Source of the DNA: Xylanimonas ulmi
GTDB lineage: Bacteria > Actinomycetota > Actinomycetes > Actinomycetales > Cellulomonadaceae
Reading direction: 5' to 3'
Assembly (NCBI RefSeq): GCF_004216535.1
Contig: NZ_SGWX01000001.1
Coordinates: forward strand, 1 to 64,000
DNA: 64,000 nucleotides
Part shown: positions 36,046 to 53,370 of the stretch, piece by piece
How the letters are laid out: each line of letters begins with the position of its first letter
How positions within the stretch are numbered: the stretch's first letter is position 1
The notes under the pieces: model-generated
What the model saw: only the letters and a program-made list of their open reading frames with translations
Database searches by the model: none
Told to the model about the DNA's origin: nothing
Program-made: the position numbers and the translations under genes

Positions 36046-36101
36046 CCGACGTTGTCGAACAAGGTCGGCCAGCCCAGAGGCTTGCCTCAGCCATGCAGGA
36101 T

Positions 36102-36111
36102 GGTCTATACC
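36102..36111. promoter_or_regulatory. dre-like operator 1 (GntR/DasR type)
   Basis: GGTCTATACC in the context TGGTCTATACCTCA is a near palindrome matching the core of the DasR/NagR response element (TGGTCTAGACCA). It lies about 200 bases upstream of the second transporter operon. Confidence 0.65.
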
Positions 36112-36223
36112 TCAGCCGCTCATCATGAAGCGTCGACAACGTTATTGGCGGCCCATCTGTCTAGGCCAATCTGCTCGAAACGCTCTCGACACCGATGTGT
36201 AACCCAGCCTCTTGCCGGGAGGG

Positions 36224-36252
36224 TTGACAGATTGGTATACACCTGTGATGCT
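36224..36252 (+). promoter_or_regulatory. Promoter with overlapping dre-like operator 2
   Basis: A consensus -35 TTGACA (36224-36229) is followed by GGTATACACC (36234-36243) inside the spacer and a weak -10 GATGCT (36247-36252) at 17 bases. Repressor bound here would block RNA polymerase directly. It drives the binding protein gene at 36303. Confidence 0.7.
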
Positions 36253-36302: not shown

Positions 36303-37595
36303 ATGAGGAACCGACGACTGGTGGCGACCCTCGCGGGCATCACCACGGCGATGACCCTCGCAGGGTGCGGCTTGTCCGGAGCTCAGGCGGACGACGCGGG
36401 ATCGGAGCCGTCGAGCTCTGATGTCACTGGCGAGATCACAGGTGACGTGACGCTGCAGACTTGGGCGCTGAAGGCGGGCTTCTCGGACTACATCGAGGGT
36501 GTCATCGCCGCTTTCGAGGAGAAGTACCCCGGCACACACGTCAACTGGATCGACCAGCCAGGCGAGGGGTACGAGGACAAGCTGCTCGCTCAGGCGAGCG
36601 CGGGGGAGTTGCCCGACGTCACCAACACGACGCCCGCGTTCGGCTTTCAGCTCGCCAAGGAGGGTTTGCTGGAGGACTTGACGCAACTCGACGATGAGCT
36701 CGACTCGACCTACGTCGCAGGGGCGCTCGAGGGCTTCCAATTCGCTGGCATCGAGGGCACCTACGGCTACCCCTGGTACCTGACGACTGAGCTGAACTAC
36801 TGGAACACCGATCTGCTCACCCAGGCCGGGCTCGACCCTGAGAGCCCGCCGCGGGACTTCGACGAGCTCCTCGCAGCAGCGCGGACCGTGAAGTCGGCGA
36901 CCGACGGCCAGGCCTACCTCATGAGCAAGAAGCCGAACCTGGGAGACTTCGCCTCGGCGGGCGTCAAGGTCATCAACGACGAAGGCACGGAGTTCGTCTT
37001 CAACTCCAAAGACGCCGTCGCCCTGCTCGACGAGTACCGCCAGGCCTACGCCGACGGGTTGCTGCCCCAGGACGTGCTCACCGACAAGTTTCTCGGTCAC
37101 ACCGAGCTGTTCAAGAAGGGCGCGGTCGGATGGACGACCGGAGGCGGCAACTTCATCGCGGGCGCCATCGCCGACAACCCGTCGCTCGAGGACAAGTTCG
37201 CCCTCTCGCCCCACTTCGGCACCCCGCCGCTCGATGTTCAGGGCGTGTCCGTGCCGAAGACGTCGAAGAACAAGGCCACGGCGATCGCGCTTGCCCGCTT
37301 CCTGACGAACGCCGAGAACCAGGAGGCGTTCGCCGACCTCGTTCCGGGCATCTTCCCGTCCACGCTGTCCTCGCAGTCGGACTTTGCCGCGTCTGACGGC
37401 AGTGACATCGCAGAGGCGAAGGCGATCGCCTTCGCCTCGCTCGACGACGCGCGTGTGCTGGAGCCGGTCCAGGTCTCCTCGGCGATGTCCACGATCATCA
37501 ACCAGGAGATCGCGGCGGCGATGACCGGACAGGTGTCGTCGCGTGAGGCGCTCGACACGGCCGTCGAGAAGTGCAACCAGATGCTCTCCGAGTAG
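36303..37595 (+). CDS. Sugar ABC transporter substrate-binding lipoprotein (second CUT1 system)
   Basis: A 430-residue lipoprotein with lipobox MTLAGC, a short acidic Ser-rich linker and a family 1 solute-binding fold (AAFEEKYPGTHVNWIDQPGE, ASAGELPDVTNTTPAF, WYLTTELNYWNTDLL, KGAVGWTTGGGNF). First gene of the largest sugar operon in the window. AGGAGG lies eight bases before the ATG. Slightly lower codon bias than the first system suggests a different history, but the difference is small. Confidence 0.92.
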   Translation: MRNRRLVATLAGITTAMTLAGCGLSGAQADDAGSEPSSSDVTGEITGDVTLQTWALKAGFSDYIEGVIAAFEEKYPGTHVNWIDQPGEGYEDKLLAQASAGELPDVTNTTPAFGFQLAKEGLLEDLTQLDDELDSTYVAGALEGFQFAGIEGTYGYPWYLTTELNYWNTDLLTQAGLDPESPPRDFDELLAAARTVKSATDGQAYLMSKKPNLGDFASAGVKVINDEGTEFVFNSKDAVALLDEYRQAYADGLLPQDVLTDKFLGHTELFKKGAVGWTTGGGNFIAGAIADNPSLEDKFALSPHFGTPPLDVQGVSVPKTSKNKATAIALARFLTNAENQEAFADLVPGIFPSTLSSQSDFAASDGSDIAEAKAIAFASLDDARVLEPVQVSSAMSTIINQEIAAAMTGQVSSREALDTAVEKCNQMLSE

Positions 37596-37677
37596 AGCCG
37601 CCCGCGGACGGGGCCGGGTCGTCGACCGTGACACGGCCCCGTCCGATCAGCGCGACCCCAAACGAACGGAGGAGCCG

Positions 37678-38679
37678 ATGAGCGCGACGGCACAGGCCGG
37701 CGGAGCGCGGTGGTCCGCACAGGCGGGCGGCGGCGCAGAAGGTCAGAGCGAGTCGATCGGCGCCAGCCGACCGACCACGGCAGCATTCGGACGCGCCCGG
37801 AGGATCCGCACCCACAGTTGGTTCGCGCCGTGGCTGCTGTGCCTTCCGGCGATCGCCTTTCTCGTGGTCTTCAACCTCGTTCCCGCCATCAACGTCGTCG
37901 TGCTCGCTTTCACGAACGCCAAGATGCTCTCCGGCGGGACGTTCGTCGGAGCGGACAACTTCGTGCGGATGCTCCACGACGACCAGGTCGGCACCGCCTT
38001 GGTCAACGGGCTGGTCTACCTGGCGGTCTGCTTGCCCTTCCTCTTGGTCCTTCCGCTCGGTTTAGCGGTCTTGGTCGAGAAGAAGATCCCGGCGATCGGC
38101 TTCTTCCGGACGATGTTCTACACCCCGGTCGTCGCCTCCGCGGTGGTGGTCGGGCTGATTTGGACCTGGTTGCTCGACGATCGCGGCGCGATCAACGCGA
38201 TCGCCAAGAGCCTCGGGCTCATCACGCGGTCGGTCCCCTTCCTGACCGACCGATGGCTGCTGCTCCTGAGCGCCATCAGTCTGACGATCTGGAAAGGCCT
38301 GGGGTACTACATGGTGATCTACCTGTCCGCGCTGGGCAGCGTGCCTCGCGAGTTGCACGAGGCGGCGGCCGTCGACGGCGCGTCCGCGTGGCGGCGGTTC
38401 TGGAGCGTGACCGTTCCAGGCGTGCGCGGCACGATGTTCCTCGTCGGGGTGCTGATCACCGTCGGGGCCCTGCGGGTGTTCTCGGAGCTGTTCATCCTGA
38501 CTAACGGGACCGGCGGTGTCGGCGGCGCAAACGTATCGATCGTGATGCTCGTCCAGATGTACGCCAGCGGCTTCAACGGCAACCTCGGCTACGCCTCGGC
38601 GTTGTCAGTGCTGTTGTTCGTGGTCACGTTGGTTCCCCTCGCGGTCATCGCACGAGTCCAGCGCAGGACTGAGCAGTGA
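37678..38679 (+). CDS. Sugar ABC transporter permease, MalF type (second system)
   Basis: A 333-residue permease with six helices; RTHSWFAPWLLCLPAIAFLV opens the first helix after a hydrophilic tail of about 40 residues, and LHEAAAVDGASAWRRFW is the EAA loop. GGAGGAG precedes the ATG. It overlaps the next permease by four bases (GTGA). Confidence 0.93.
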   Translation: MSATAQAGGARWSAQAGGGAEGQSESIGASRPTTAAFGRARRIRTHSWFAPWLLCLPAIAFLVVFNLVPAINVVVLAFTNAKMLSGGTFVGADNFVRMLHDDQVGTALVNGLVYLAVCLPFLLVLPLGLAVLVEKKIPAIGFFRTMFYTPVVASAVVVGLIWTWLLDDRGAINAIAKSLGLITRSVPFLTDRWLLLLSAISLTIWKGLGYYMVIYLSALGSVPRELHEAAAVDGASAWRRFWSVTVPGVRGTMFLVGVLITVGALRVFSELFILTNGTGGVGGANVSIVMLVQMYASGFNGNLGYASALSVLLFVVTLVPLAVIARVQRRTEQ

Positions 38680-39569
38680 CCGCGGCCGAAACCTCGACCG
38701 GCGCTGCGATGTCCAAGGTCGGCCGATCGCATCGAGGCTTCTCGTCCGTCCGCCCGAGTGAACTCGTCGTCCGGTACGCATGCCTCCTGGTCGTGCTCGC
38801 GGTGACGATCGGGCCCTTCCTGTGGCAGCTGTCGACGTCACTCAAGGGCCCGGCTGACGACATCTACAGCTCCACGCCACGACTCTTCCCCTCCGATCCG
38901 ACGCTTGCGAACTTCATCGAGGCGGCCACGAAGATCCCGATCCTCGGGTTCGCCGCGAACTCTTCGCTCGTCGCGCTGCTTGTGGTCGGTGGGAACATCA
39001 TCGGCGCGACCATGGCTGGTTACGCGCTCGCGCGACTGAGGTTCCGAGGCCGAGGCGTTGTCCTGGGGGCCATCCTCGCGACAATGCTGTTGCCGGCAGA
39101 GTCGACGATCGTCGCGCAGTACCTCACGGTGCGCGAACTCGGCTTGGCCGACACACTGCTCGGGGTCGCGCTTCCAGCGATGGTCTCAATGATCAACATC
39201 CTCTTGATGCGTCAGGCGTTTCTCGCGGTGCCGAAGGAGCTGGACGAGGCCGCGATCGTCGACGGCGCGAACGTCTGGCAGCGCTTCTGGCGCATCGGGC
39301 TCCCCAACGTTCGGGGCATGGTGGCGGTGATCTCCGTCTTCGCGTTCATCGCGGCTTGGGACGACTTCCTGTGGCCGTTGCTCGTGCTGACGACCCCCGA
39401 GAAGTTCACGCTGACCGTCGGGCTGCAGTACCTCTCGGGCGCGTTCTCGTCCAACCCGCGTGTCGTCGCGGCCGGCACCATGATCGCCTTCATCCCGATC
39501 GTCGTCTTCTTCCTCGTTCTCCAGCGGCAGTTCTTTCGAGGCGTCGACGCGGGCGCCATCAAAGGGTGA
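38676..39569 (+). CDS. Sugar ABC transporter permease, MalG type (second system)
   Basis: A 297-residue permease with six helices, the MalG-type LSTSLKGPADDIYSSTPRLF loop and EAA loop LDEAAIVDGANVWQRFW. GTG start coupled to the upstream stop. As in the first system, no ATPase gene is present. Confidence 0.93.
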   Translation: MTAAETSTGAAMSKVGRSHRGFSSVRPSELVVRYACLLVVLAVTIGPFLWQLSTSLKGPADDIYSSTPRLFPSDPTLANFIEAATKIPILGFAANSSLVALLVVGGNIIGATMAGYALARLRFRGRGVVLGAILATMLLPAESTIVAQYLTVRELGLADTLLGVALPAMVSMINILLMRQAFLAVPKELDEAAIVDGANVWQRFWRIGLPNVRGMVAVISVFAFIAAWDDFLWPLLVLTTPEKFTLTVGLQYLSGAFSSNPRVVAAGTMIAFIPIVVFFLVLQRQFFRGVDAGAIKG

Positions 39570-39664
39570 CCGCCGACGCCTCACCCAGCGGTGCGAGCAC
39601 GGCCGAGCAAGGTCGGAGCGCGCCGCCACGACCAAGGACGGTATCGAGAGGAGCAGTGAAAGGC

Positions 39665-42085
39665 ATGAGTCACGATCGCGCAGTCTCGCCTTATCGATGG
39701 GCTGTCTTGCGGCGCGCGCCACGCGCGTTGCTGGTGCTCGCGCTGGCCGCGGTGGGGATGAGCGTCCCTCCACCCACGGCGAGCGCCGATGCCACCGAGG
39801 TCGACCGCCCGACAGTCGTGGCCGCGGACGGCGCGCAATGGGCCATCGACGCGGTCAACACTGGTCGAGGCGCTGGGATGCTCGTCCAGTACACGCCGGA
39901 CTACGGGTTCTCCACCTTCACCAACCCCTGGGGAGCAGAGGCCGTCGTCGAGGCCACCGCGGAGCCGAACACGTACCAGGTGCTGACGGTCGGCTCGGCC
40001 CAGAGGGATCTGTCGACCAGCGGGAACCGCCAGATCCCGGCCGATGGCTTCGTCCTGTCTGCCGGCCCGGACGGCAGCCCCGACGCCGTCGCCTTCATCA
40101 CTGACCACTTCACGCCCGGAGATCTGGTCACGATCGTGCGCCCGACGTCGCTGAACGCCAGCAACCCGCTGGCCGTGGTCGACCCGACGCCCGAGACGAA
40201 CCCTTCCGGCGCCGAGTTCCCCGGTTACCGAGGCGCTGACCAGCTCATTCAGTACACTCCGGCCTTCGGGCAATCCACTGGCACCAACGAGTGGGGATAT
40301 GAGCTCGTTGTACGCTCCGGGGTCGTGGCCGCGGTCGGTGGGGCGAACTCTGCCATCCCTCCTGACGGCTACGTCCTGTCCGGCCATGGCGTCGCGGACG
40401 CGTTCCTGCGCGCCAACGGCATCGTCGGCGCATCGGTCGAGATCGAGGCAGGCGCTGTCCGGATCCGCTCGGACGTCGGAACGGCGATCAGCAGCGCGAC
40501 CGCCGAGGTCGCCAGGGTCGCCCAAGCTGTCTCGGAAGGCGACGCCAACTTCCTCGACGCGGACTTCGCCACTGCGAACGACGCGCTCACCCGCGCGGAC
40601 GCCGCTCTGAGAGTGGCACGGTCCGCGATGGGCGTCGACGACCAGACGGCCCTATGGCAGGTCGACCAGGCCCTGGCCGCCTCGCGCGCGGCGTCGTACG
40701 CCGCGACGCCCAGCCGTGTCGCCGAGTCTCGCGGCGTCTGGTACCGACCGGTCGAGCTCGACGCCGAGGCGGTTCGAGCGACCGTGGCGAGGATGGCGCA
40801 GACGGGCGTCAACGAGCTCTACCTGGAGACCCTGTGGGGTGGATACACCATCTACCCGAGCGCGGTCGCCGCTCGGTACGGACTACCCGCGCAGCGCCCC
40901 GAGTTCGCCGGCTTCGACGCCCTGGCGGTGTGGAAGGCGGAGACCGAACGGGTGGGCATCGCGCTGCACGCCTGGGTCGACGGACTCGCCGTCGGCAATG
41001 AGCTGGGAGACGGTGTCGGTCCGATCGTGACCACTCACCCCGAGTGGCTCGCCCAGCCCCGTGACCATGCCGGCTCGGACGCCGCGTTCCCGTCCGCCAA
41101 TGGGTTCTACTGGCTCGACGTCACCGATCCCCGCGCTCGGCAGTACTTCCTCGATGTCACCTCCGAGATGGTCCACCAGTACGGCCTCGCGGGCCTGAAC
41201 CTGGACTACATGCGCTACCCGTCGAACGGGAGCTGGCAGAGCGCCTACAACTTCTCCACCGATGCCGTCGCGACGTTCCAGGCCGCCTACGGAACGGACC
41301 CGCTGACACTGTCGGGGGACGACGAGGCAGCGTGGTCGCAGTGGACCACGTTCGTCGAGTCCGAGGAGAATCGCATGGTCGGCGAAGTCTCCCGGGCGGT
41401 GAAGGCGGTCAAGCCGGGCGCAGTCGTGTCTGACGCGCCGGAGGCCGGGACCGAGGCGGACAAGATCGGCCAGTGGTCCCACGTGCTCGACGTCGTCATC
41501 CCGCAGGCCTACACCACGAACCTCGACGCGATCCGCCAGCGGGTCGACACGGTCGTGCACAGCATGACCGGGGGTCAGCTGGTGTACGCGGGGCTCAGCG
41601 CGATGTACGAGCGCGGCGGTGCGGACGCGACCGTCCAGCAGACCCAGGCGGCGCGAGACGTGGACGCCGGGTCGGTGATCTTCGCGTTCGGCCAGGCGGG
41701 GCCAGCGCACGTCAGCGCGCTCTCAAGCGGGCCGTGGCGTGAGTCGGCGGTGTCGCCGGGCGTCCACCCGATCGAGGCGACACGTGCCGTCGTCGACGAC
41801 GCTGTGGAGCGGATCGCGGCCTCATACCTCCCCCGCAAGGGGCTCGACAGGGTCATCGCCACGACGCTCACCGCCCGGCTCAAGGCGGTCAAGGCCGTCC
41901 TGGGGGGCGAGGCGCGGCCCATCCAAGTCACCGTCGCCTCGCGCCAGGTCGCGGCGCTGCAGTCCGTCGTCGAGCGCGAGCAGTCCGCCGGGCGCATGGA
42001 TGCCGCGGTCGCTGCCCGCCTGCGTGACAGTCTCGGCGAGTGCGCCACCTTCCTCGCGTACGCGTCAGCGAGGAACATGCGATGA
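39665..42085 (+). CDS. Secreted GHL10-type glycoside hydrolase-like protein
   Basis: An 806-residue secreted protein. Residues about 15-45 are a signal peptide (ALLVLALAAVGMSV, cut near ASA). Residues about 50-270 hold two copies of one domain (GMLVQYTPDYGFSTFTN with PADGFVLSAG; then QLIQYTPAFGQSTGTN with PPDGYVLSGHG). After a helical linker, residues about 355-690 form a family-10-like (GHL10, PF02638) TIM barrel: ESRGVWYRPVELDAE, GVNELYLETLWGG, GIALHAWVDGLAVGN, GLAGLNLDYMRYPSNG, with Asp and Glu candidates for catalysis. The C-terminal about 100 residues are helical. It probably cleaves or remodels a glycan outside the cell. Its stop overlaps the GH36 gene by four bases. Confidence 0.82.
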   Translation: MSHDRAVSPYRWAVLRRAPRALLVLALAAVGMSVPPPTASADATEVDRPTVVAADGAQWAIDAVNTGRGAGMLVQYTPDYGFSTFTNPWGAEAVVEATAEPNTYQVLTVGSAQRDLSTSGNRQIPADGFVLSAGPDGSPDAVAFITDHFTPGDLVTIVRPTSLNASNPLAVVDPTPETNPSGAEFPGYRGADQLIQYTPAFGQSTGTNEWGYELVVRSGVVAAVGGANSAIPPDGYVLSGHGVADAFLRANGIVGASVEIEAGAVRIRSDVGTAISSATAEVARVAQAVSEGDANFLDADFATANDALTRADAALRVARSAMGVDDQTALWQVDQALAASRAASYAATPSRVAESRGVWYRPVELDAEAVRATVARMAQTGVNELYLETLWGGYTIYPSAVAARYGLPAQRPEFAGFDALAVWKAETERVGIALHAWVDGLAVGNELGDGVGPIVTTHPEWLAQPRDHAGSDAAFPSANGFYWLDVTDPRARQYFLDVTSEMVHQYGLAGLNLDYMRYPSNGSWQSAYNFSTDAVATFQAAYGTDPLTLSGDDEAAWSQWTTFVESEENRMVGEVSRAVKAVKPGAVVSDAPEAGTEADKIGQWSHVLDVVIPQAYTTNLDAIRQRVDTVVHSMTGGQLVYAGLSAMYERGGADATVQQTQAARDVDAGSVIFAFGQAGPAHVSALSSGPWRESAVSPGVHPIEATRAVVDDAVERIAASYLPRKGLDRVIATTLTARLKAVKAVLGGEARPIQVTVASRQVAALQSVVEREQSAGRMDAAVAARLRDSLGECATFLAYASARNMR

Positions 42086-44241
42086 GGATCGGGACTGACG
42101 ACGTCGCGCACCTGCGCGCAGGAGGGGTCTCGCTCGTCGTGGCGGTCGGTGAGGGGCTGCCGCGCGTCGTGCACTGGGGGCCGGACCTTGGGTCATTGAG
42201 CCAGGAGCACCTGCGGGCGCTCGTGACGTCGTCAGTCCCGCCGATCGTCTCAGGTCCCGTCGACGCAGTCGTGCCGCTGGCGGTGCTGCCCGAGGCGCAT
42301 CGAGGCTGGTTTGGCACCCCCGGCGTCAGTGGGCACCGGGGCGGGCGCGACTTCTCGCCGGCCTTCACATCACGGGCCGTTGAGCACACCGAGCACGATC
42401 AGGGCGCCCAGCGCCTGGTCGTTCATGCCCGCGACGCGAAAGCCCTCTTGTCACTCGTGCTCACGATCGAGTTGGCCTCGTCGGGTCTCGTCACGCTCCG
42501 AGCGACCCTCACGAACGACGACCATGACAGTGAGTACTGGCTCGACCAGATGAACCTCGCGCTGCCGGTGCCGACCGAGGCGACCGAACTGCTCGACTTC
42601 ACCGGGCGGCACCTGCGCGAGCGTGCGCCACAGCGAAGCCCGTTCACACAGGGCACACACCTGCGGGAGAACCGGCGCGGACGAACCGGATCGGACGCTG
42701 CGACCCTCTTGATCGCGGGCCGCCCCGGATTCGCTTTCGAAGCGGGTCAGGTGTGGGGTGTCCACGTCGGCTGGTCGGGCAACCACCGCGTGCTTGCCGA
42801 GCGCAACGCCGAGGGACAAGGTGTTCTGGCGGGTGGCGAACTGCTGCTGCCCGGCGAGTTGCGCCTCGCGCCCGGGCAGTCCTACACCACGCCCACCGTC
42901 TACGGATCGTGGGGTGACGGGCTCAACGCATTGTCCTGGCGCTTCCATGACTACCTGCGTGCCCGCCCGAACCACCCGAGCCCGCGGCGGGCGGTCCTGC
43001 TCAACACCTGGGAGGCGGTCTACTTCGCTCAGGATGTCGAGACCCTGAGCGAGCTCGCGGACGCCGCGGCCGACGTCGGGATCGAGCGGTTCGTGCTCGA
43101 CGACGGATGGTTTCGTGGCCGTCGCGACGACTCCGCGGGGCTCGGGGACTGGTTCGTCGACCCCGACGTGTGGCCCGATGGACTCGACAAGTTGGTTGAG
43201 AGGGTCCGCGAGCGCGGAATGGAGTTCGGCCTGTGGTTCGAACCCGAGATGGTCAACACCGACTCCGACCTGGCGCGCGCCCACCCGGAGTGGATCTTGT
43301 CGGCCGGAGAGCGCCTGCCTCCGGAGGCGCGCCACCAGCAGGTGCTCGACCTGACCGAGCCGGAAGCCTTCGAGTTCGTGCTCGCTCGCCTCGACGCACT
43401 CGTCCTTGAGTACGGGATCGACTTCGTCAAGTGGGACCACAATCGGGACCTCGTCGACGCCGGACACGAGGGGGCGCCCGCAGTCCACTGGCAGACGCTC
43501 GCCGCCTACCGGCTGATGGACACCCTGCGAGAGCGGCATCCGGGGTTGGAGATCGAGTCGTGCGCCTCAGGCGGTGCGCGTGTGGATCTGGGTGTTCTGG
43601 AGCGCACTGACAGGGTCTGGGCATCCGACGCGATTGACGCCCTCGAGCGGCAGCACATCGAACGCTGGACCCGTCTGCTGCTGCCACCCGAGTTGATCGG
43701 GTCGCACATCGGTTCGGCGTGGGCCGCCGCGACAGGGCGCACGCACGAGCTTGAGTTCCGCGCGGGCACCGCGTTCTTTGGCTGCCTTGGCGTCGAGCGG
43801 GACCTGCGGCGCGCCGACGCGGCAGAACGCCAGGCGTTGCGCGAGTGGATCGCCCTGTACCGGCGCCACCAGGTTCTGTTGCACACAGGCCGGTTTCACA
43901 CTGTCGACCACGGCGACGATTCGCTCCACGTGCACGGTGTGGTCGCACGCGATCAGAGTGAGGCGATTTTCTCGTTCGCCGCTGTGGCGACCTCGCCGTA
44001 CGCCCGGCCGGGTTTGGTCCGGCTTCCCGGACTTGACCCCGACGCCGAGTACCTGGTGACGCCTGTCGCACTGGCGTCGCAGGTCGAGAAGTTCATGGGG
44101 CGGACCGTGCCGCCGTGGTGGGCGACTGGAGCACGGCTGCCGGGAGGCGTCCTGTCGCGCCGCGGAGTGCAGATCCCCGCGCTGTTCCCTGAGAGGTTGA
44201 CGATGGTGCATCTGGTCCGGACGGTGGAGTCCACGCCATGA
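42082..44241 (+). CDS. GH36 alpha-galactosidase-type glycosidase
   Basis: A 719-residue cytoplasmic enzyme of clan GH-D. An N-terminal beta-supersandwich domain precedes the barrel. The nucleophile Asp is in FVKWDHNRD (about 453) and the acid/base Asp in WASDAIDALER (about 516); other family blocks are VLDDGWFRGRRDD, GLWFEPEMVN, CASGGARVDLG and RAGTAFFGCLG. GH36 includes alpha-galactosidases and alpha-N-acetylgalactosaminidases, so an amino-sugar substrate is possible. No signal peptide, so it acts on imported oligosaccharide. Four-base overlaps on both sides show tight coupling. Confidence 0.92.
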   Translation: MRIGTDDVAHLRAGGVSLVVAVGEGLPRVVHWGPDLGSLSQEHLRALVTSSVPPIVSGPVDAVVPLAVLPEAHRGWFGTPGVSGHRGGRDFSPAFTSRAVEHTEHDQGAQRLVVHARDAKALLSLVLTIELASSGLVTLRATLTNDDHDSEYWLDQMNLALPVPTEATELLDFTGRHLRERAPQRSPFTQGTHLRENRRGRTGSDAATLLIAGRPGFAFEAGQVWGVHVGWSGNHRVLAERNAEGQGVLAGGELLLPGELRLAPGQSYTTPTVYGSWGDGLNALSWRFHDYLRARPNHPSPRRAVLLNTWEAVYFAQDVETLSELADAAADVGIERFVLDDGWFRGRRDDSAGLGDWFVDPDVWPDGLDKLVERVRERGMEFGLWFEPEMVNTDSDLARAHPEWILSAGERLPPEARHQQVLDLTEPEAFEFVLARLDALVLEYGIDFVKWDHNRDLVDAGHEGAPAVHWQTLAAYRLMDTLRERHPGLEIESCASGGARVDLGVLERTDRVWASDAIDALERQHIERWTRLLLPPELIGSHIGSAWAAATGRTHELEFRAGTAFFGCLGVERDLRRADAAERQALREWIALYRRHQVLLHTGRFHTVDHGDDSLHVHGVVARDQSEAIFSFAAVATSPYARPGLVRLPGLDPDAEYLVTPVALASQVEKFMGRTVPPWWATGARLPGGVLSRRGVQIPALFPERLTMVHLVRTVESTP

Positions 44242-45926: not shown

Positions 45927-47452
45927 GGATCGCGTTGCTGCCGCTCGATGAGCGCCCTGTCAACGTGCGCCTGCCCGCTGAGGTCGCGGCGGTCGCGGGC
46001 GCCGAGGTCGTCGTGCCTCCTGCGGGAGCGCTGCCGCGGATGCGTGTGCCGGGTGACGTGGACGTCCTCGGCGACTGGCTGGTCGGCCAGTGCCTCGACC
46101 CTGCCACCGACGCAGCGGTCGTGTCGCTTGAGATGCTCCACCACGGCGGTTTGCTCCCCTCGCGCCTGAGTCACGACGACCTGTGGAGCACCCTCGGGCG
46201 ATCACAGGTGTTGCGCACCATCCGAGCCGCTCGACCGAGCCTGCCGATCGCCGCGCTGTCCGTCGTCATGCGCGCAAGCGACTCCTATGTGGCGGATGAG
46301 GAGCCCGAGTACTGGACGCTGTACGGCCGTGACCTGCACGCCGTCGGCGCGGACCTGCACAGGAGCTTCCTGGGAGAGCCGACGTCGGGCGCCGGCGCCC
46401 GCGTGCCGCATGAGGCGCGCGCGGACTTCCTGCGTCGTCGGCTCCGCAACCACCTGGTCAACCTTGCGGCGCTTGACCTCGTGGCTGACGGCGTGATCGC
46501 CCCGTTGCTCGTCACGGCCGACGACACCGCGTCCCGATCCGCCGGATCGGTCGAGCAGGCGTGGATCGCTCACTGGTCGCGTGCGCTGTGCCGGCCGGAG
46601 GGGTCTGTCGTCAGCCACCCTGGGGCCGACGAGGTCTCGGCCGTCCTGGTCTCTCGCGCGCTCGGCGCCCTCGACCCGCGACCGGTGTCGATCGCCGTCG
46701 CGTGCGCAGACCCGCTGGGGCTCAAGCGCACGGCGCCCTACGAGAACGCGCCGGTGGGTGTGGGGGCGGCGTCGCAGATTCGCGCGTCGGGCAGTGTCGT
46801 CGCTGACGGGCCGGGCGACGCGCTGCTGGTCGTGCACGCGCCCGATCCCATCGGCGGGGACTGGCGCGGGAGGATGCCCCACGACTGCGGGCGCGAGCCC
46901 GGGCCGGCCGCTCGGGGGGACGAGGCCGTGCGATCGACCGCCGCGGTCATCCGAGCCGCGCTCGACGCGGGCGCCGCCGTGGGCCTGGCCGACGTCCGAT
47001 ACGCCAATGGAGCAGACCCGCGGCTTGTCACGGAGTTGTTGGAGCAGGGGCTCATCGAGAGGCTGTCCGCCTACGCGGCGTGGAACACCGCAGGGAACAC
47101 TCTCGGGTCGGTCGTGGCGACGCTCCGCGCCGGAGTGATCGGCAGGCGCGCCGGCGCCTTCGACGCTCACGCGGCGCGAAGGCTGCTGGTGGGGCGTGTC
47201 CTGGAGGATTGGGGGTACCAGGCCGTGGTGCGCACCCGCCTGACGGGGACGCTCGACCCTCAGGCAGGAGAGGACCCCGCCGCCGACGGCCGTGGGGACA
47301 GCTACCTCGCCCGCGCGCGCCGTGAGCTCGCGGGGCTCCTTGAGCGTGTCTCGCCCGGAGCGCGGCTCGACCGCGTCACCCTGCCGTGGCGTCGTTCGTT
47401 CGAGGTCGAGTTCGACGTCCGACTGCCCCACGACAGACCGCGGGGGGCCTGA
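45923..47452 (+). CDS. DUF4127 protein
   Basis: A 509-residue cytoplasmic protein of DUF4127. The diagnostic start is IALLPLDERPVNVRLP; other blocks are VVSLEMLHHGGLLPSR, VMRASDSYVADEEPEYW, PLLVTADDTASRSAG, VGLADVRYANGADPRL and YAAWNTAGNTLGSVVA near 385. No enzymatic role is established for the family. Conserved Asp, Glu, His and Asn residues in these blocks look like an active site, and its place between glycosidases and a sugar kinase suggests an enzyme of sugar processing; this is inference. Four-base overlap with the GH13 gene, zero-base gap to the kinase. Confidence 0.85.
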   Translation: MRIALLPLDERPVNVRLPAEVAAVAGAEVVVPPAGALPRMRVPGDVDVLGDWLVGQCLDPATDAAVVSLEMLHHGGLLPSRLSHDDLWSTLGRSQVLRTIRAARPSLPIAALSVVMRASDSYVADEEPEYWTLYGRDLHAVGADLHRSFLGEPTSGAGARVPHEARADFLRRRLRNHLVNLAALDLVADGVIAPLLVTADDTASRSAGSVEQAWIAHWSRALCRPEGSVVSHPGADEVSAVLVSRALGALDPRPVSIAVACADPLGLKRTAPYENAPVGVGAASQIRASGSVVADGPGDALLVVHAPDPIGGDWRGRMPHDCGREPGPAARGDEAVRSTAAVIRAALDAGAAVGLADVRYANGADPRLVTELLEQGLIERLSAYAAWNTAGNTLGSVVATLRAGVIGRRAGAFDAHAARRLLVGRVLEDWGYQAVVRTRLTGTLDPQAGEDPAADGRGDSYLARARRELAGLLERVSPGARLDRVTLPWRRSFEVEFDVRLPHDRPRGA

Positions 47453-48373
47453 GTGCGTTGCTTTCTGGGGGTTGACGTCGGCGGAACGAAGACCGCCGCC
47501 GCCGTGGTCGACGCGTGCGGGCGGGTGCTGCTGAGCTCCGTCGTCGCGACGCCCGCACGGCTCGGGGGAGCGGCGGTGCTGGAGGCCGCAGGCGCTGGTG
47601 CGGCCTTGACGCTCGAGCGCGCCCGTGCGGAGGGTCTGCGACCCGAGGCATGCGGCGCCGGTGTGGCTGGGGTCATCGGCCCCGACGGGGTCGTCACCAG
47701 TGCGACCGAGGCGCTGCCAGGCTGGGCCGGCGTCGATGTTCGATCGGGCCTGGCGGCAGCGACCGGCCTGCCGGTGCGTGTCGTCAACGACGTTCACGCG
47801 CTCGCTCTCGGTGAGGCTCGGTTCGGCGCCGCGGCGGACGCGCGAAGTGTCCTGGTCGTCGCCGTCGGGACCGGCGTCGGCGGCGCCTTCGTCCACGACC
47901 GGAGGTTGGTCGCGGGGCGCAGCGGAACCGCCGGGTCGATCGGGCACACTCCGGTCGCAGGTCGTGAGGGCCGCCGGTGCCCGTGCGGCGCCGAGGACCA
48001 CCTGGAGGCCTACGCCTCGGGTCCGGCGATCGTGAGCCGCTACGCCGCGCGTGGTGGGCAGGGCGAGCGCCTGGAGGACGTTGTGGCCGCTGCGGGGCGC
48101 GGAGACGACGCCGCGCGCACGGTGCTGGTCGAGGCGGGGACCCTGATCGGGCAGGTCGTGGCAGGCGCCGCCAATCTCCTCGACCCGCACGCGATTGTGT
48201 TGGGCGGCGGGGTGCTGCACGCAGGGGCTCACCTGCTCGATCCGCTCAGGCGGGCCTTGATGGCGCACACGCTGCCGGGACCGCGCGCTGCGCCGGTGAG
48301 CGCTACGGCGCCGCTGCCCCATGGGAACGTCGTCGGTGCCGCAAGCCTGGTGATGGATGGTATAGACCTTTAG
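47453..48373 (+). CDS. ROK-family sugar kinase
   Basis: A 306-residue kinase of the ROK family. The phosphate loop is GVDVGGTKTAAAVVD, the sugar-binding Asp is in VVNDVHALALGEA, then GTGVGGAFV, GSIGHTPV, and VLGGGVLHAG. The usual zinc motif CxCGxxGCxE appears as CPCGAEDHLE: two Cys are kept but the third is lost, with His in its place. With the adjacent NanE, the most sensible substrate is N-acetylmannosamine or another amino sugar (NanK-like), but glucose-type sugars are not excluded. GTG directly follows the DUF4127 stop. The last codons contain a GntR operator. Confidence 0.88.
   Translation: MRCFLGVDVGGTKTAAAVVDACGRVLLSSVVATPARLGGAAVLEAAGAGAALTLERARAEGLRPEACGAGVAGVIGPDGVVTSATEALPGWAGVDVRSGLAAATGLPVRVVNDVHALALGEARFGAAADARSVLVVAVGTGVGGAFVHDRRLVAGRSGTAGSIGHTPVAGREGRRCPCGAEDHLEAYASGPAIVSRYAARGGQGERLEDVVAAAGRGDDAARTVLVEAGTLIGQVVAGAANLLDPHAIVLGGGVLHAGAHLLDPLRRALMAHTLPGPRAAPVSATAPLPHGNVVGAASLVMDGIDL
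48359..48368. promoter_or_regulatory. dre-like operator 3, inside the end of the ROK gene
   Basis: GGTATAGACC, flanked by AT and TT, encodes the Gly-Ile-Asp of the ROK C-terminus and lies 15 bases before the GntR start. Binding would give autoregulation. Confidence 0.7.
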
Positions 48374-48382
48374 GATGGCCTT

Positions 48383-49114
48383 ATGACGGCAGAACCCGGG
48401 GTCACAGCCCCGCCTCGCTCGAAGTACCTGCAGATCAAGGACGCTCTGCTCGAGGCGTACATCGACGGCAAGCCGGCCGGCAGCGCTCTTCCCCCCGAGC
48501 GGGTCCTCGCGGCTGACTTCGGCGTCACTCGCGTCACCGTGCGTCGCGCCATCGACGAATTGGAGTCCGACGGGTTGGTCTACCGGGTTCAAGGCGGGGG
48601 CACGTACTCCGTCGGCCCGTCGATCGCCAAGTCGCTGCGCCTGACGTCGTTCAGCGAGGACGTCCGGGCTCGTGGCAGGACGCCAAGCTCGCGACTGTTG
48701 GAGGTCGCTCACGGCGCCGCTGGTGACGAGGTCGGGCGCAGCCTCCACCTCAGTCCGGGGGACGGTGTCGTGACCGTCCGGCGCCTGCGCATGGCAGACG
48801 GCGAGCCGATGTGCCTGGAGGTGTGCGCTCTCGCGGCAGCGACCGTCCCTGGCCTGGAGGACCTCGATCTGACTGGCTCGCTCTACGAGTTGCTCGAGCG
48901 GCACTACGGCATCGCGCCCACGCGCGCCGAGCAGCTCATCGAGGCGACGGTGCTCGACGAGCATGACGCCGCGATGCTCGGCGTGCCGCCGTTCTCCGCG
49001 GCGCTGCGCGCGACACGGACCTCGTACGACTCGCGAGGTGGTCCCGTCGAGTACGCGGTGACGACGTACCGGGCCGACCGGTACTCGCTTCGGTTCGCCG
49101 TGCGCAGGGACTGA
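48383..49114 (+). CDS. GntR-family (HutC/DasR/NagR type) regulator
   Basis: A 243-residue regulator. The winged HTH spans residues about 12-75 (YLQIKDALLEAYIDGKPAG, LPPERVLAADFGVTRVTVRR, AIDELESDGLVYRVQGGGTY) and a UTRA effector domain follows (TSFSEDVRARGRTPSSRLLE, LEVCALAAATVPGLE, TRAEQLIEATVLDEHDAAML). DasR and NagR of this class bind GlcNAc-6-P or related amino-sugar phosphates at TGGTCTAGACCA-like sites, and four such sites lie around this locus. AGGATGG precedes the ATG. It is the likely local repressor. Confidence 0.92.
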   Translation: MTAEPGVTAPPRSKYLQIKDALLEAYIDGKPAGSALPPERVLAADFGVTRVTVRRAIDELESDGLVYRVQGGGTYSVGPSIAKSLRLTSFSEDVRARGRTPSSRLLEVAHGAAGDEVGRSLHLSPGDGVVTVRRLRMADGEPMCLEVCALAAATVPGLEDLDLTGSLYELLERHYGIAPTRAEQLIEATVLDEHDAAMLGVPPFSAALRATRTSYDSRGGPVEYAVTTYRADRYSLRFAVRRD

Positions 49115-49154
49115 CGGCGGATCCTCCCAAAATCGTTGCATGGCCGAGATAAAT

Positions 49155-49164
49155 GGTATATACC
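49155..49164. promoter_or_regulatory. dre-like operator 4 upstream of nanE
   Basis: GGTATATACC is a perfect palindrome overlapping the probable -10 (TATATA, 49157-49162) with TTGCAT at 49136-49141 as -35; repression by occlusion is expected. Confidence 0.75.
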
Positions 49165-49171
49165 AAAGCCT

Positions 49172-49975
49172 GTGAAATTGACTCCCGGCTCGCGCCCCCG
49201 AGGGACCGGACGTCCATCTCGTGATGTGACCGTCGCGAAGCTGGCTCACGGCCTGGTCGTCTCCGCGCAGACCCACCATCCGGGCGGACCGCTCGACCAC
49301 CCCGCCACGCTGGTGCGCCTCGCCCTGGCGGCAGGGCACGGCGGGGCTGCCGGCTTCCGGGTCGCGTCCCCGGACGTCGTCGCCCTGCTGAGCGGGAGCA
49401 CGGACCGACCGGTCATCGGCATCACGAAGCGTCGCGTGCCAGGCCAGGAGGTGTTCATCACTCCGTCGGTGTCCGACGCGGTGGCCCTGGTGAACGCGGG
49501 GGCGGACCTTGTCGCGGCGCATGCGGCGACCCGAGGACGACCAGCGGAGACGTTCGGCGAGATCGTCGCCGCCTGCCACGCACTCGGGGTGCCCGTGATG
49601 GCGGACTGCGCAACCGAGGCCGAGGCGCATGACGCCGTCGAGGCAGGCGCGGACCTCATCGCGACCACCATGGCTGGGTACACCCGAGAGACGAGGGACG
49701 TCGTCCCGCCCGCACTGGAGCTGGCGGAACGGTTGGTGCGCGCCCTCACGGTCCCGGTGGTCGTCGAAGGGGGTGTCTGGGACCCGGCTGTCGTCACCGC
49801 GGCCTTTGCGACGGGTGCGTATGCGGTCGTCGTCGGCTCGGCCGTGACCGACCCCGAGCGCATCACGCGACGGATGGTGGCGGCGATCCCGCCGATCCCC
49901 GAGAACAGGTCCGCTGTCGAACAGGTCGACGCGCGTGGCCCCTGGGCCTCGACCCCGAATGGAGAGTGTCGGTAA
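49172..49975 (+). CDS. nanE: N-acylglucosamine-6-phosphate 2-epimerase (NanE-like)
   Basis: A 267-residue TIM-barrel epimerase converting ManNAc-6-P to GlcNAc-6-P in the known family. Conserved blocks are HGLVVSAQ, GGAAGFRVASPDVV, GITKRRVPGQEVFITPS with the catalytic Lys near 86, ADLVAAHAAT, VMADCATEAEAHDAVEAGAD, and VPVVVEGGVWDP with the catalytic Glu near 199. Some positions depart from the usual wording (EGGVWDP for EGRIxTPE). GTG 49172 sits about ten bases after the -10, consistent with a leaderless message; GTG 49226 is the alternative and would remove a basic 18-residue extension absent from relatives. The Gfo/Idh gene follows after two bases. Confidence 0.82.
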   Translation: MKLTPGSRPRGTGRPSRDVTVAKLAHGLVVSAQTHHPGGPLDHPATLVRLALAAGHGGAAGFRVASPDVVALLSGSTDRPVIGITKRRVPGQEVFITPSVSDAVALVNAGADLVAAHAATRGRPAETFGEIVAACHALGVPVMADCATEAEAHDAVEAGADLIATTMAGYTRETRDVVPPALELAERLVRALTVPVVVEGGVWDPAVVTAAFATGAYAVVVGSAVTDPERITRRMVAAIPPIPENRSAVEQVDARGPWASTPNGECR

Positions 49976-49977
49976 CC

Positions 49978-50991
49978 ATGAGAGTGGGAATGATCGGCGC
50001 CGGCGGAATCGCCGTCGAGCACGCCGCCGCCTGGGCGGCGCTCGGTGCTGAGATCACGGTCTTCAGCGCCGAGGGTGCGCAAGACCTTGCGACGGAATGC
50101 GGCGGGAAGGCGGTCGCCAGCCTCGACGACCTTTTGGGCCGCAGCGACGTCGTCGACGTCATGACGCCGACGGACACGCATTACGAGTACACGCTGGCCG
50201 CAATCGAGGCCGGCCGGCACGTGGTGTGCGAGAAGCCGCTCGCGCGCACGCCGGCACAGGCTGGTGAGCTCGTGTGGGCAGCCGCCCGTGCGGGGGTGCA
50301 GCTCTATCCGGCCCAGGTTGTGCGCTACTTCCCGGAGTACGTCGCCACCCGGAACGCGGTTGCCGCCGGGCGTGTCGGACGCCCCGCCGTGCTGCGGCTC
50401 ACGCGAAGCGGCGTGTTCCCCTCGTGGTCGCCATGGTTCGCCGACGACGCACGGTCGGGTGGGATCGTCGCTGACCAGATGATCCACGACCTGGACATCG
50501 CGCGGTGGATTGCTGGAGAGGTCCGTGAGGTGTACGCGCTGCGCTCGCGCGCCGACCAGCGGCAGACCGCGCACGTCACGCTCACCCATGTGAGCGGAGC
50601 CGTCAGCTCGGTCGCCGGGCTGTGGGGTCCGCCGCACCTGGCGTTCCGCACCGCCGTCCACGTCGCCGGCGACCGCGGAGTCCTGCGGTACGACTCTGCT
50701 CAGCCAACTGGTGTGCGAGCCGACCTCGCCCCGGTCGCGGTCGACGGGCGACCTCGCCCCGCCGCGGTCGGAGGTGAGAGCCCCTATCTCGCGCAGTTGC
50801 GTGAGTTCGCAGCGGCATTCGACGGCGGGCCACTCCCGCGCGTCGACGCCGTCGACGGGGCGATCGCCGTCGAACTCGCCGCCGCCGCCCAGACCTCGAT
50901 CGCGCGCGGTGAGCCTGTGCGCGTCGACACAGCGGCACGCGCGTGCGCACTGGCTGCCGCTGTCGGCACCACGGATCGGAGAAGCGCGTGA
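49978..50991 (+). CDS. Gfo/Idh/MocA oxidoreductase 1
   Basis: A 337-residue NAD(P)-dependent oxidoreductase. GMIGAGGIAVEHAAAWAALG is the dinucleotide-binding turn, VCEKPLAR holds the catalytic Lys, and VADQMIHDLDIARWI the conserved His. Substrate in this family is usually a sugar, inositol or sugar acid. Two-base gap from nanE, so it is in the same unit. GGAGAG lies 11 bases before ATG. Confidence 0.88.
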   Translation: MRVGMIGAGGIAVEHAAAWAALGAEITVFSAEGAQDLATECGGKAVASLDDLLGRSDVVDVMTPTDTHYEYTLAAIEAGRHVVCEKPLARTPAQAGELVWAAARAGVQLYPAQVVRYFPEYVATRNAVAAGRVGRPAVLRLTRSGVFPSWSPWFADDARSGGIVADQMIHDLDIARWIAGEVREVYALRSRADQRQTAHVTLTHVSGAVSSVAGLWGPPHLAFRTAVHVAGDRGVLRYDSAQPTGVRADLAPVAVDGRPRPAAVGGESPYLAQLREFAAAFDGGPLPRVDAVDGAIAVELAAAAQTSIARGEPVRVDTAARACALAAAVGTTDRRSA

Positions 50992-52031
50992 ACCACGACA
51001 AGCCCCGCCACGCCGACCTGAAGGTCGCGGTGCTCTCCTTCGCGCACCCACACGCCGAGGCGTACGCGGACCTGCTCACCGCATGGCCTGGCGTCCAGGT
51101 ACTGGCCGCCGACCCCGACGGCTCGACCGAATCGGGTGGGGGCCCCCGGGGTCGGGAGCTTGCACAGACTCTCGGCGTGGACTACGTCGAGACGTATGCC
51201 GAGGCGTTCGCCTGGGGTCCCGACGCCGTCATTGTGTGCAGCGAGAACGCCCGTCACCGCGACCTGGTCGTCGCCGCCGCCCGGGCGGGGGCGCACGTGC
51301 TGTGCGAGAAGCCGCTCGCCACGAGCGCCGCCGACGCGCGCGCCATGATCGAGGCGTGCGACGGAGCCGGCGTCTTCCTCATGACCGCCTACCCGGTCCG
51401 GTTCAGCCCCGAGTTCGCGACGCTGCGCGCGCACGTGGACGCGGGATCCCTCGGACAGGTGATGGCGTTGGTGGGGACCAACAACGGAAAGATCCCCCTG
51501 GACGGGCGGCCCTGGTTCGTCGACCCCAGGCTTGCGGGAGGTGGAGCGCTTGTCGACCACGTCGTGCACGTCGCAGATCTGCTGGATGCCTTGCTGGGCG
51601 TGCGAGCGGAGTCCGTCCGTGCGGCGACGAACCGCATCCTGCACGCTGACGATCCGCGTGTGACCGTCGAGACCGGTGGGCTGGTCAATGTCACCTACCC
51701 CGGTGGGGTGATCGCCACGATCGACTGCTCATGGAGCCACCCGAACGCAGCGCCCAACTGGGGTGGGCTCACGCTTCAGGCGGTCGGCACAGAGGGTGTC
51801 ATCGACATCGACCCGTTCGGCGCCCACGTTGCCGGGACGGCCGAAGACCAGCCCGCGTGGCTAGCGTTCGGCGGCGATCTTGACCGTGCGATGCTCGGGC
51901 ATTTTCTGGACGGCGTCCGCAGCGGCGTGGCTCCGCAACCAGACGGGCCCGCGGGACTCCGCAGCCTGGAGGTGATGTTGGCCGCTCAGGAGTCCGCGGC
52001 GACGGGTCAGGCGGTCCGACTGGCCACGTGA
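50988..52031 (+). CDS. Gfo/Idh/MocA oxidoreductase 2 with atypical nucleotide-binding turn
   Basis: A 347-residue protein of the same family but its N-terminus reads VAVLSFAHPHAEAYADLLTA in place of the glycine-rich GxGxxG, a form known in a subgroup with an F-x-H-x-H start. LCEKPLATS and GGGALVDHVVHVADLL keep the catalytic Lys and His. Start GTG overlaps the upstream stop by four bases. It may act on the product of the first oxidoreductase. Confidence 0.87.
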   Translation: MNHDKPRHADLKVAVLSFAHPHAEAYADLLTAWPGVQVLAADPDGSTESGGGPRGRELAQTLGVDYVETYAEAFAWGPDAVIVCSENARHRDLVVAAARAGAHVLCEKPLATSAADARAMIEACDGAGVFLMTAYPVRFSPEFATLRAHVDAGSLGQVMALVGTNNGKIPLDGRPWFVDPRLAGGGALVDHVVHVADLLDALLGVRAESVRAATNRILHADDPRVTVETGGLVNVTYPGGVIATIDCSWSHPNAAPNWGGLTLQAVGTEGVIDIDPFGAHVAGTAEDQPAWLAFGGDLDRAMLGHFLDGVRSGVAPQPDGPAGLRSLEVMLAAQESAATGQAVRLAT

Positions 52032-52173
52032 GTGTGCCGCTGCCGGGCTCGCCCGCGGGCGCTCCTGCCGTCCAGGTGATCAGTTGATGGCGGGTCCGGA
52101 CCGCGGACGCATACGGTCTGCTCAGGCGCGTCCGGCGACCGGAGCGCGCACCATCGATCATGCGGTGTGGGGG

Positions 52174-53370
52174 ATGATGAAGTCGCTTAGCAGGCCACGG
52201 CTGGCGGTCGCCGTCGTCGGCGCCGGGCAGCGCGCCGGGATCGGGCGTCATGTCGCGGCGGTCCGCGACGACGCCGCGGTGAGCGCCGTCGTCGACAGCG
52301 ACCCGGTCGGCCTCGACCGCGGCCGGACCCTGTTCGGCGACGTCCAGACCTTCGCCAGCCACCGCGACCTGATCGCCGCGCGCGCCGCCGACGCGGCGAT
52401 CATCACGACCCCCGACGACACCCACGCGGACATCGCGGTCGACCTGTTGCGGGCGGGCGTGGCCTGCTACTTGGAGAAGCCGCTCGCCACGACGCTCGCG
52501 GACGCCGACCGGGTGCTGGCGGCCGCGGCCGAGAGCGGGACGCCGCTGTACGTCGGGCACAACTACCGGCACGCGGGCGTCGTGCGCGCGATGCGAGGGG
52601 TGATCGAGCGCGGCGAGATCGGTGAGGTCAAGGCCATCTGGGTGCGCCACTTCGTGGGGCATGGCCCGGACTACTACTTCAAGGACTGGCACGCCGACCG
52701 GTCGCGCACCGGCACGCTCCTGCTGCAGAAGGCGAGCCACGACATCGACATCGTCCACTACCTCGCGCGGGGGTACACGCGCCGCGTGGTCGGCATGGGC
52801 GACCTCATGGTCTACGGCGAGGTGGCCGACCGTCGCGAGCGGCCCGGGCAGACGATGGCGGACTGGTTCTCGCTCGCCAACTGGCCGCCCGCGAGCAACA
52901 CGGGGCTCAACCCCGTCGTCGACGTCGAGGACGTCTCGATGATGCTGATGACGCTCGACAACGGGGTGCAGGCCAGCTACCAGCAGTGCCACTTCACCCC
53001 GGACTACTGGCGCAACTACACGGTCATCGGCACGCAGGGGCGACTGGAGAACATCGGCGACACGGCCGGGGGAGTCGTGCGCGTCTGGAACCGCCGGCAC
53101 GACTGGCAGATCCACGGGGACGCCGAGCATCCGATCGAGGGCGTGACCAGCGGGCACGGGGACGCGGACGTGGCGACCATGGCGGAGTTCCTCGGCCTGG
53201 TCATCGACGGCGCGCCGACCGTCGTCTCACCCGTCGCCGCCCGCGCGGCTGTCGCCGCGGGGGCGCTCGCCGCGCAGTCGCTGCGCGACGGGTCGCGCCC
53301 ACGAGACGTGCCGCCGCTGGCCCGGTCGGTGCTCGACCACTTCGCCGCCACGACGCGGTCGCCGGTCTGA
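52174..53370 (+). CDS. Gfo/Idh/MocA oxidoreductase 3
   Basis: A 398-residue oxidoreductase with AVAVVGAGQRAGIGRHVAAV, YLEKPLATT and LLQKASHDIDIVHYL. It is longer than its neighbours, owing to an insertion (VVGMGDLMVYGEVADRRERP, SLANWPPASNTGLNPVV). It starts 142 bases after the previous gene with no coupling; ATG 52174, ATG 52177 and GTG 52165 are close alternatives. No dre-like site precedes it, so regulation may differ. It converges with the nitroreductase-like gene. Confidence 0.87.
   Translation: MMKSLSRPRLAVAVVGAGQRAGIGRHVAAVRDDAAVSAVVDSDPVGLDRGRTLFGDVQTFASHRDLIAARAADAAIITTPDDTHADIAVDLLRAGVACYLEKPLATTLADADRVLAAAAESGTPLYVGHNYRHAGVVRAMRGVIERGEIGEVKAIWVRHFVGHGPDYYFKDWHADRSRTGTLLLQKASHDIDIVHYLARGYTRRVVGMGDLMVYGEVADRRERPGQTMADWFSLANWPPASNTGLNPVVDVEDVSMMLMTLDNGVQASYQQCHFTPDYWRNYTVIGTQGRLENIGDTAGGVVRVWNRRHDWQIHGDAEHPIEGVTSGHGDADVATMAEFLGLVIDGAPTVVSPVAARAAVAAGALAAQSLRDGSRPRDVPPLARSVLDHFAATTRSPV

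Follow-up and report, generated by a model that had tools for sequence, protein, structure and literature searches.

The window analysed here is a stretch of 64,000 nt (72% G+C) from Xylanimonas ulmi, whose genome is a single contig of 3.97 Mb. It contains a cluster of 13 genes, all on the plus strand, at positions 36303-53370. The genes encode, in this order, a sugar-binding protein, two permeases of the ATP-binding cassette (ABC) type, a GHL10 protein, GH36 and GH13 glycosidases, a DUF4127 protein, a ROK-family sugar kinase, a GntR/UTRA regulator, a NanE-family 2-epimerase and three Gfo/Idh/MocA oxidoreductases, here termed Gfo1, Gfo2 and Gfo3. Seven of the 12 gene junctions overlap or abut, one has a gap of 9 bases and four have gaps of 82-148 bases. 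All families named in the original prediction, which was made from the sequence alone, were recovered with Pfam and NCBIfam where it had placed them, and the GntR/UTRA gene is a member that it had overlooked. A transporter ATPase is missing from the 13 genes and so is, as predicted, any sialic acid lyase family. The cluster is a real, conserved and apparently co-regulated operon, and represents an undescribed variant of an ABC-fed operon for glycan catabolism.

Co-regulation is suggested by the palindrome TGGTATANACCW. Perfect copies occur three times in the genome, each at a promoter of the cluster, and a near copy is found at a fourth site. All four sites are present at the corresponding places of L129, the sister locus described below. 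Outside the cluster, the pattern is matched three times if one mismatch is allowed, the same number as for a reversed control pattern. It is absent from most of the other GntR-bearing clusters scanned and therefore seems specific to the version of the cluster in this genus. These candidate sites lend in-silico support to the single regulon that had been predicted, with GntR putatively acting on three promoters.

The proposed search for the same gene set in other actinobacteria led to a second species of the genus. Among 221 genomes of the family, one close copy of the window NanE was detected (G926, 69% identity), the next best match being 48% identical. The respective locus, L129, holds the complete set of 13 genes in identical order. 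The 13 protein pairs share 61-84% identity (72% for the sugar-binding protein, 80% for the regulator) and third codon positions are the most divergent in every pair, as expected of genes under selection. The G+C content at third codon positions (GC3) of the window copy is 0.82-0.89 from the sugar-binding protein to Gfo2 (36303-52031), whereas 13 flanking genes reach 0.94-0.98. The value for Gfo3 is 0.96, and 0.92-0.96 was obtained for 12 of the 13 L129 genes, which are all that were measured. Judged by base composition, the window copy may have been acquired horizontally.

DUF4127 was used as an anchor for a wider view of the gene neighborhood. Profile matches were found in 20 of the 396 genomes sampled within the order and in 15 of 394 within the class, together 32 different genomes. 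Two of them, with DUF4127 fragments below the cut-off, were left out of the search for NanE, which covered the other 30. In 12 of these 30 genomes, NanE is encoded no more than 10 kb from DUF4127, compared to 0.22 expected under random placement (the genomes are related and no p-value is given), which supports DUF4127 as a genuine member of the cluster. In addition, 48 DUF4127 loci were read, 30 from the class of the window and 18 from Bacillota, Armatimonadetes, Pseudoduganella and others. NanE is present in 16 of them and always accompanied by a sugar kinase, namely a ROK kinase in 13 loci and a BadF-type kinase in three (L007, L063, L091). The BadF assignment is confirmed by Pfam in L063; L007 and L063 match the NagK model below its cut-off. 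Conversely, clusters of NanE, kinase and ABC transporter that lack DUF4127 are found in the class as well (L179-L185, L195), which makes DUF4127 dispensable for some such modules. The DUF4127 protein of the window matches PF13552 above the cut-off and its alignment shows the residues that are invariant in the family. No sequence relative was found among solved structures, no clear fold match was obtained for a confident structural model with a predicted local distance difference test score (pLDDT) of 88.3, and the family was not found in any paper of the literature searched. As far as gene neighborhoods can tell, DUF4127 is a broader partner in glycan catabolism that is often but not always tied to an amino-sugar module. 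It occurs in Bacillota, Armatimonadetes, a Pseudoduganella and the class of the window. The link with NanE, with kinases for amino sugars and with sugar oxidoreductases makes it a testable candidate for a glycan-catabolism enzyme.

Two further contexts of DUF4127 were observed. In one (L052, L053, L064-L066, L069, L070, L089, L095), it is found with an oxidoreductase dependent on flavin adenine dinucleotide (FAD) and an ABC importer, without NanE. In the other (L056, L058, L059, L061, L062, L090, L092-L094), it adjoins large, apparently secreted proteins, and several of these loci also carry an enolase-superfamily protein and an AGE-type epimerase, for which Pfam was run on L090 only.

The closest relatives of the cluster are L067, L068, L096 and L097. 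They show the order sugar-binding protein, two permeases, GntR, ROK, DUF4127, FAD oxidoreductase, NanE and GH38, or its mirror image, with GHL10 alongside. L063 is of the same type with a BadF kinase in place of ROK, L091 has a BadF-type kinase and no GH38 match, and a DUF4127/NanE/GH38 cluster from Pseudoduganella (L011) has no GHL10. The FAD oxidoreductase was assigned to PF12831 by Pfam in L063 and by BLAST to a PF12831 protein elsewhere. The permeases of the window are 46-56% identical to those of L063, L067, L068, L096 and L097, and 43 and 54% identical to those of L091; over all six loci, the range is 43-55% for permease 1 and 50-56% for permease 2. GH36, GH13 and three Gfo/Idh enzymes in the window stand where the relatives have the FAD enzyme and GH38, whose nearest NCBIfam model is mannosylglycerate hydrolase (291 of 1138 bits). 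The Bacillota versions have RpiR-type regulators and some carry further families of secreted proteins or glycosidases (DUF4434 in L006 and L008, DUF4855 and GH20C in L003). In terms of gene content, the core that stays constant thus comprises NanE, DUF4127, the kinase and the transporter, the glycosidases are variable, and the combination of GH36, GH13 and Gfo/Idh is a rare variant. The glycosidases may vary because related substrates are decorated differently. GH36 and GH13, from which alpha-linked galactose or N-acetylgalactosamine and glucose had been predicted, are outside the recurring core and so may be informative about decorations and not about the pathway itself.

Two neighbors of such loci are recorded here. 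A purple-acid-phosphatase-like protein (L011:45-1844) adjoins the Pseudoduganella cluster. In L139 (10103-12638), a protein resembling the DUF4434 protein of L006 (BLAST, 26%) is directly followed by NanE and ROK; ABC and GntR genes are present there, DUF4127 is not, and the locus shares the Asp/Ser residue variant described next.

The sugar contacts of NanE and of the kinase deviate from the canonical pattern. According to the excerpted text of PMC8482478, the active site of NanE from S. aureus (SaNanE) comprises Gln11, Arg40, Lys63, Asp124, Glu180 and Arg208. In the substrate, the hydroxyl groups on C3 and C4 are contacted by Arg208, whose exchange for Ala leaves ~4% of the activity and raises the Michaelis constant from 2.9 to 31 mM (PMC8482478, same excerpt). 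In the window NanE, the first five of these residues are conserved and Arg208 is replaced by Asp, so that the signature VG[SG]AxTR reads VGSAVTD. Asp208 is also found in L129, L055, L057, L139, L007, L193 and L194. In the ROK kinase, the contacts by Asn-Asp, His and the last Glu are kept, and the position usually taken by Glu or His is Ser in the window and Ala in L129. The sugar-contacting Glu of ROK kinases is E154 in PsNagK (PMC10031466, excerpt), and small residues at the homologous position of MurK accommodate the C3 lactyl ether of its substrate (PMC10465942, excerpt). Of the 42 loci that carry both NanE and ROK, five (window, L129, L055, L057, L139) combine an acidic residue at position 208 with a small kinase residue; the remaining 37 show neither of the two. 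The best trees require three changes for NanE and two for ROK. A single origin of the paired changes was not rejected by the approximately unbiased test (p 0.33 and 0.24), and independent pairs on well-supported branches number two in the NanE tree and one in the ROK tree. For the pairing to attain significance at 0.05, six or more independent gains would be required. An acidic residue 208 further occurs alongside BadF-type kinases, which are outside the kinase-residue test (Asp in L007, L193 and L194, Glu in L179 and L180). Elsewhere in the class, His, Asn, Ser, Val or Ala are found at this position; given this variability, a change of residue does not necessarily imply a change of substrate. 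Sialic-acid-like NanE/ROK loci of the family (L131-L134, L136-L138, L140-L143, L145-L148) have His208 and likewise break the published NanE signature. The alignments hint at a sugar that differs from N-acetylmannosamine (ManNAc) at C3 or C4. In any case, the paired changes offer a concrete and cheap biochemical handle on a non-standard sugar.

The catabolic enzymes were compared with solved and characterized relatives. GHL10 enzymes include DigH/YddW. An Asp-Tyr pair at the barrel is present in all eight GHL10 proteins of the clusters, and a Gln-x-Tyr motif, equated with Gln295/Tyr297 of Cwp19 by motif and not by structure, is found in the window and L129 members only. No match of the window GHL10 to PDB chains was obtained with phmmer at E 0.01. 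Cwp19, a characterized GHL10 protein, is a lytic transglycosylase (PMC6016235, excerpt). GH36 has the Melibiase domain plus N- and C-domains, and its nearest solved relatives are the alpha-galactosidases AgaB/AgaSK/AgaA; those of GH13 are the alpha-glucosidases 8yif and 8yie (490 and 486 bits). Among solved structures, Gfo1 is best matched by chain A of 8w9s (200 bits; chain B is named RifT) and Gfo2 by an aldose-aldose oxidoreductase (85 bits). Gfo3 weakly matches 8qc2 over its first 200 residues (80 bits). The latter is an NAD+-dependent sulfoquinovosidase of GH188 that involves a transient oxidation at C3 (PMC10755693, excerpt).

Table 1 Genes and candidate operators of the cluster (positions in the window)
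Feature	Position	Strand	Evidence or remark
Candidate GntR-type operator O1, TGGTCTATACCT	36101..36112		1 mismatch; L129 counterpart at 1605
Candidate operator O2, TGGTATACACCT	36233..36244		5' of sugar-binding protein gene; L129 counterpart at 1734
Sugar-binding protein, extracellular (SBP_bac_1/8; PF13416/PF01547)	36303..37595	+	Pfam; lipoprotein signal judged by eye
ABC permease 1 (BPD_transp_1)	37678..38679	+	Pfam
ABC permease 2 (BPD_transp_1)	38676..39569	+	Pfam
GHL10 (PF02638), putative glycan-cleaving enzyme	39665..42085	+	70.5 bits, cut-off 27.9; N-terminus looks secreted
GH36, alpha-galactosidase-type glycosidase	42085..44241	+	Pfam, Melibiase 386 bits
GH13, alpha-glucosidase-type glycosidase	44238..45926	+	Pfam, 293 bits
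DUF4127 protein (PF13552)	45923..47452	+	397 bits, cut-off 27
ROK-family sugar kinase (PF00480)	47453..48373	+	181 bits, cut-off 22.9
Candidate operator O3, TGGTATAGACCT	48358..48369		5' of gntR, within the end of the ROK gene; L129 counterpart at 13818
GntR/UTRA transcription regulator	48383..49114	+	Pfam
Candidate operator O4, TGGTATATACCA	49154..49165		Perfect palindrome, 5' of nanE; L129 counterpart at 14632
NanE-family 2-epimerase	49226..49975	+	PF04131 138 bits (cut-off 27); NCBIfam PRK01130 207 bits (cut-off 189)
Gfo/Idh/MocA oxidoreductase 1 (Gfo1)	49966..50991	+	Family match
Gfo/Idh/MocA oxidoreductase 2 (Gfo2)	50991..52031	+	Family match
Gfo/Idh/MocA oxidoreductase 3 (Gfo3)	52180..53370	+	Family match

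Upstream of the cluster and separate from it, genes for a LacI regulator, a binding protein and two permeases are located at 31484-36001, and a glycogen-debranching-type protein is encoded on the minus strand at 29320-31353. No copy of the GntR operator was found among these upstream genes (29320-36001). The window also contains a UPF0182 gene (14022-17051), a family typical of actinobacteria and cyanobacteria.

With slightly more confidence than doubt, we regard the cluster as a catabolic operon under GntR control that is supplied by an ABC importer and handles an oligosaccharide with a manno-configured N-acetylhexosamine, i.e. ManNAc or a close derivative. The gene content, the operator pattern, the conservation in a second species, the linkage of DUF4127, NanE and kinase across several phyla and the presence of NagA- and NagB-like genes are directly established. 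In the proposed pathway, GHL10 would act extracellularly and cleave a polymer, for which a glycan of the bacterial envelope is the most likely candidate. The pieces would be imported by the binding protein and the permeases with an ATPase shared from elsewhere. By their families, GH36 and GH13 would then remove alpha-linked sugars, as the substrate of this variant probably carries alpha-galactosyl and alpha-glucosyl decorations. DUF4127 would act inside the cell on the amino-sugar core left over and, going by the company of its gene, might work together with oxidoreductases, i.e. Gfo/Idh enzymes here and the FAD enzyme in the nearest relatives. The freed amino sugar would be phosphorylated by ROK and inverted at C2 by NanE, and the resulting N-acetylglucosamine 6-phosphate (GlcNAc-6-P) would be passed on to NagA- and NagB-like enzymes encoded elsewhere. 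A NagB-family gene is located at 980823 (PF01182, 227 bits; the family also includes other enzymes) and a NagA-like gene at 398215 (209.9 bits, below the NCBIfam cut-off of 225.65). A ManNAc-type sugar freed in the cytoplasm could therefore reach central metabolism, and the predicted lack of NagA and NagB is correct for the cluster itself.

A number of observations weigh against this interpretation. No characterized homologous operon anchors the substrate. The divergence of NanE and ROK from the canonical sugar contacts means that the sugar may not be ManNAc, and the kinase scores far below the NanK cut-offs (104.5 of 283 bits for PRK05082, 95 of 450 for NF047821), its best match being a glucokinase model, again below the cut-off (129.5 of 260 bits). 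NanE is missing from 32 of the 48 DUF4127 loci, in some owing to a short contig or fetched stretch, and DUF4127 is therefore not specific for ManNAc. GH36 and GH13 are far below their best-matching NCBIfam equivalog models, a beta-L-arabinopyranosidase (90.8 of 1100 bits) and an enzyme named beta-galactosidase BglA (336.8 of 900 bits), respectively, which weakens any exact assignment of their sugar specificity. Finally, the Gln-x-Tyr motif sets the GHL10 proteins of the window and L129 apart from their counterparts in the FAD operons, so the polymers may differ as well.

Among the alternatives, the kinase and NanE could be tuned to another 2-acetamido sugar with a change at C3 or C4, such as a C4 epimer or a 3-amino or 3-keto derivative, with C3 redox chemistry carried out by the Gfo/Idh trio. 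We consider this unlikely, although the loss of the C3/C4 contact at Arg208 (PMC8482478, excerpt), the small kinase residue that would admit a C3 substituent as in MurK (PMC10465942, excerpt), the coincidence of both changes with three and two steps in the trees, and the C3 oxidation by the nearest solved relative of Gfo3 (PMC10755693, excerpt) all speak for it. These points are offset by the shared origin that was not rejected, the few well-supported independent pairs, the weak likeness of Gfo3 and the variability of position 208, which is acidic in five BadF loci and His in the sialic-acid-like loci. More specifically, the glycan could be built on an unusual C3- (or C4-) modified manno-configured N-acetylhexosamine, with DUF4127 and the Gfo trio (the FAD enzyme in relatives) forming an oxidoreductive unit for glycoside cleavage or demodification, and with the O3/O4-side contacts of kinase and NanE jointly changed; we give this little credence. 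If true, the substrate sugar would be one that is handled by no described pathway, and the cleaving or demodifying unit would be new. It is similarly improbable, if anything slightly more so, that the cluster is an ordinary raffinose- or melibiose-like operon for alpha-galactosides and alpha-glucosides, with NanE, ROK and DUF4127 as incidental members. The nearest solved relatives of GH36 and GH13 and the glucokinase score of ROK are in line with such an operon. However, the core of NanE, kinase, DUF4127 and transporter recurs without GH36 or GH13, and NanE is the sole strong copy in the genome and has a candidate operator of its own. The cluster NanE is the only strong one (>100 bits) in eight of the nine NanE-DUF4127 genomes first recognized; a second full copy was found in G209, and extra partial matches of 27.7-27.8 bits (cut-off 27) in G102 and G116. 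Raffinose-type sugars are also not known to require a secreted GHL10 protein or three Gfo/Idh enzymes.

A recovery of peptidoglycan-derived N-acetylmuramic acid (MurNAc), with GHL10 as the murein-cleaving enzyme and a kinase residue small enough for the lactyl ether, is very unlikely. To our knowledge, NanE plays no part in MurNAc recovery. The activity of Cwp19 (PMC6016235, excerpt) and the binding of MurNAc by MurK through small residues (PMC10465942, excerpt) would fit. MurQ, in turn, exceeded the cut-off in none of the five genomes with the variant kinase and NanE (partial matches of up to 27.3 bits; one genome is 89% complete), compared to eight of 18 genomes searched overall; the best match in the window genome covers 65 residues (27.3 of 302 bits). 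The lack of MurQ above the cut-off disfavors MurNAc as the substrate, and with it the peptidoglycan version of the predicted wall glycan; the general idea of a wall glycan is plausible. Just as remote is a rearranged sialic acid operon whose lyase is located elsewhere or lost. NanE and a ROK kinase are the canonical nan pair, and three lyase-superfamily matches were found in the genome, none of them near the cluster (139.9, 98.2 and 95.6 bits, nanA cut-off 382). This cut-off is strict, as it was passed by only one of 14 control genomes and the lyase-like neighbor of the second G209 NanE reaches only 83.7 bits; the three matches can hence not be dismissed as non-lyases. On the other side, nanA exceeded the cut-off in none of the nine NanE-DUF4127 genomes (weaker superfamily matches occur in all nine), no lyase family is part of the cluster, and, unlike the window cluster, the NanE/ROK loci of most other family members studied contain genes for MsmK-like ATPases, in most cases two, as well as His208. 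By the features tested, the cluster is neither a nan nor a MurNAc operon and exceeds the needs of a raffinose-type operon.

From the predicted undescribed glycan pathway, the co-regulation, the mismatch with the known textbook clusters and the amino-sugar branch of kinase and NanE were supported, with ManNAc itself uncertain due to the altered contacts. The same gene combination was not found described in the literature and databases searched, and homologous clusters with an ordinary known substrate were sought without success, none of the loci examined having a characterized substrate.

With Cwp19, the window GHL10 shares the domain, the Asp-Tyr pair and the Gln-x-Tyr motif, and the lytic transglycosylase activity of Cwp19 fits a putative wall-glycan substrate. 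The oxidoreductive glycosidases of GH109 and GH188 have the Gfo/Idh family in common with the cluster, the likeness of Gfo3 to GH188 being confined to its N-terminal part. Raffinose and melibiose ABC operons share the ABC importer, GH36 and GH13, to which the window adds the amino-sugar module, DUF4127, GHL10 and Gfo/Idh enzymes. In nan operons, an amino-sugar kinase and NanE likewise feed GlcNAc-6-P to NagA and NagB; the window differs by the absence of a lyase from the 13 genes, the altered NanE and kinase contacts and the extra GHL10, GH36, GH13, DUF4127 and Gfo/Idh genes. The FAD operons (L067, L068, L096, L097, and L063 with BadF) share the transporter subfamily, GntR, DUF4127, NanE, ROK and GHL10 (36-40%) with the window, which in contrast has Asp instead of Arg at position 208 of NanE and Ser instead of His in ROK.

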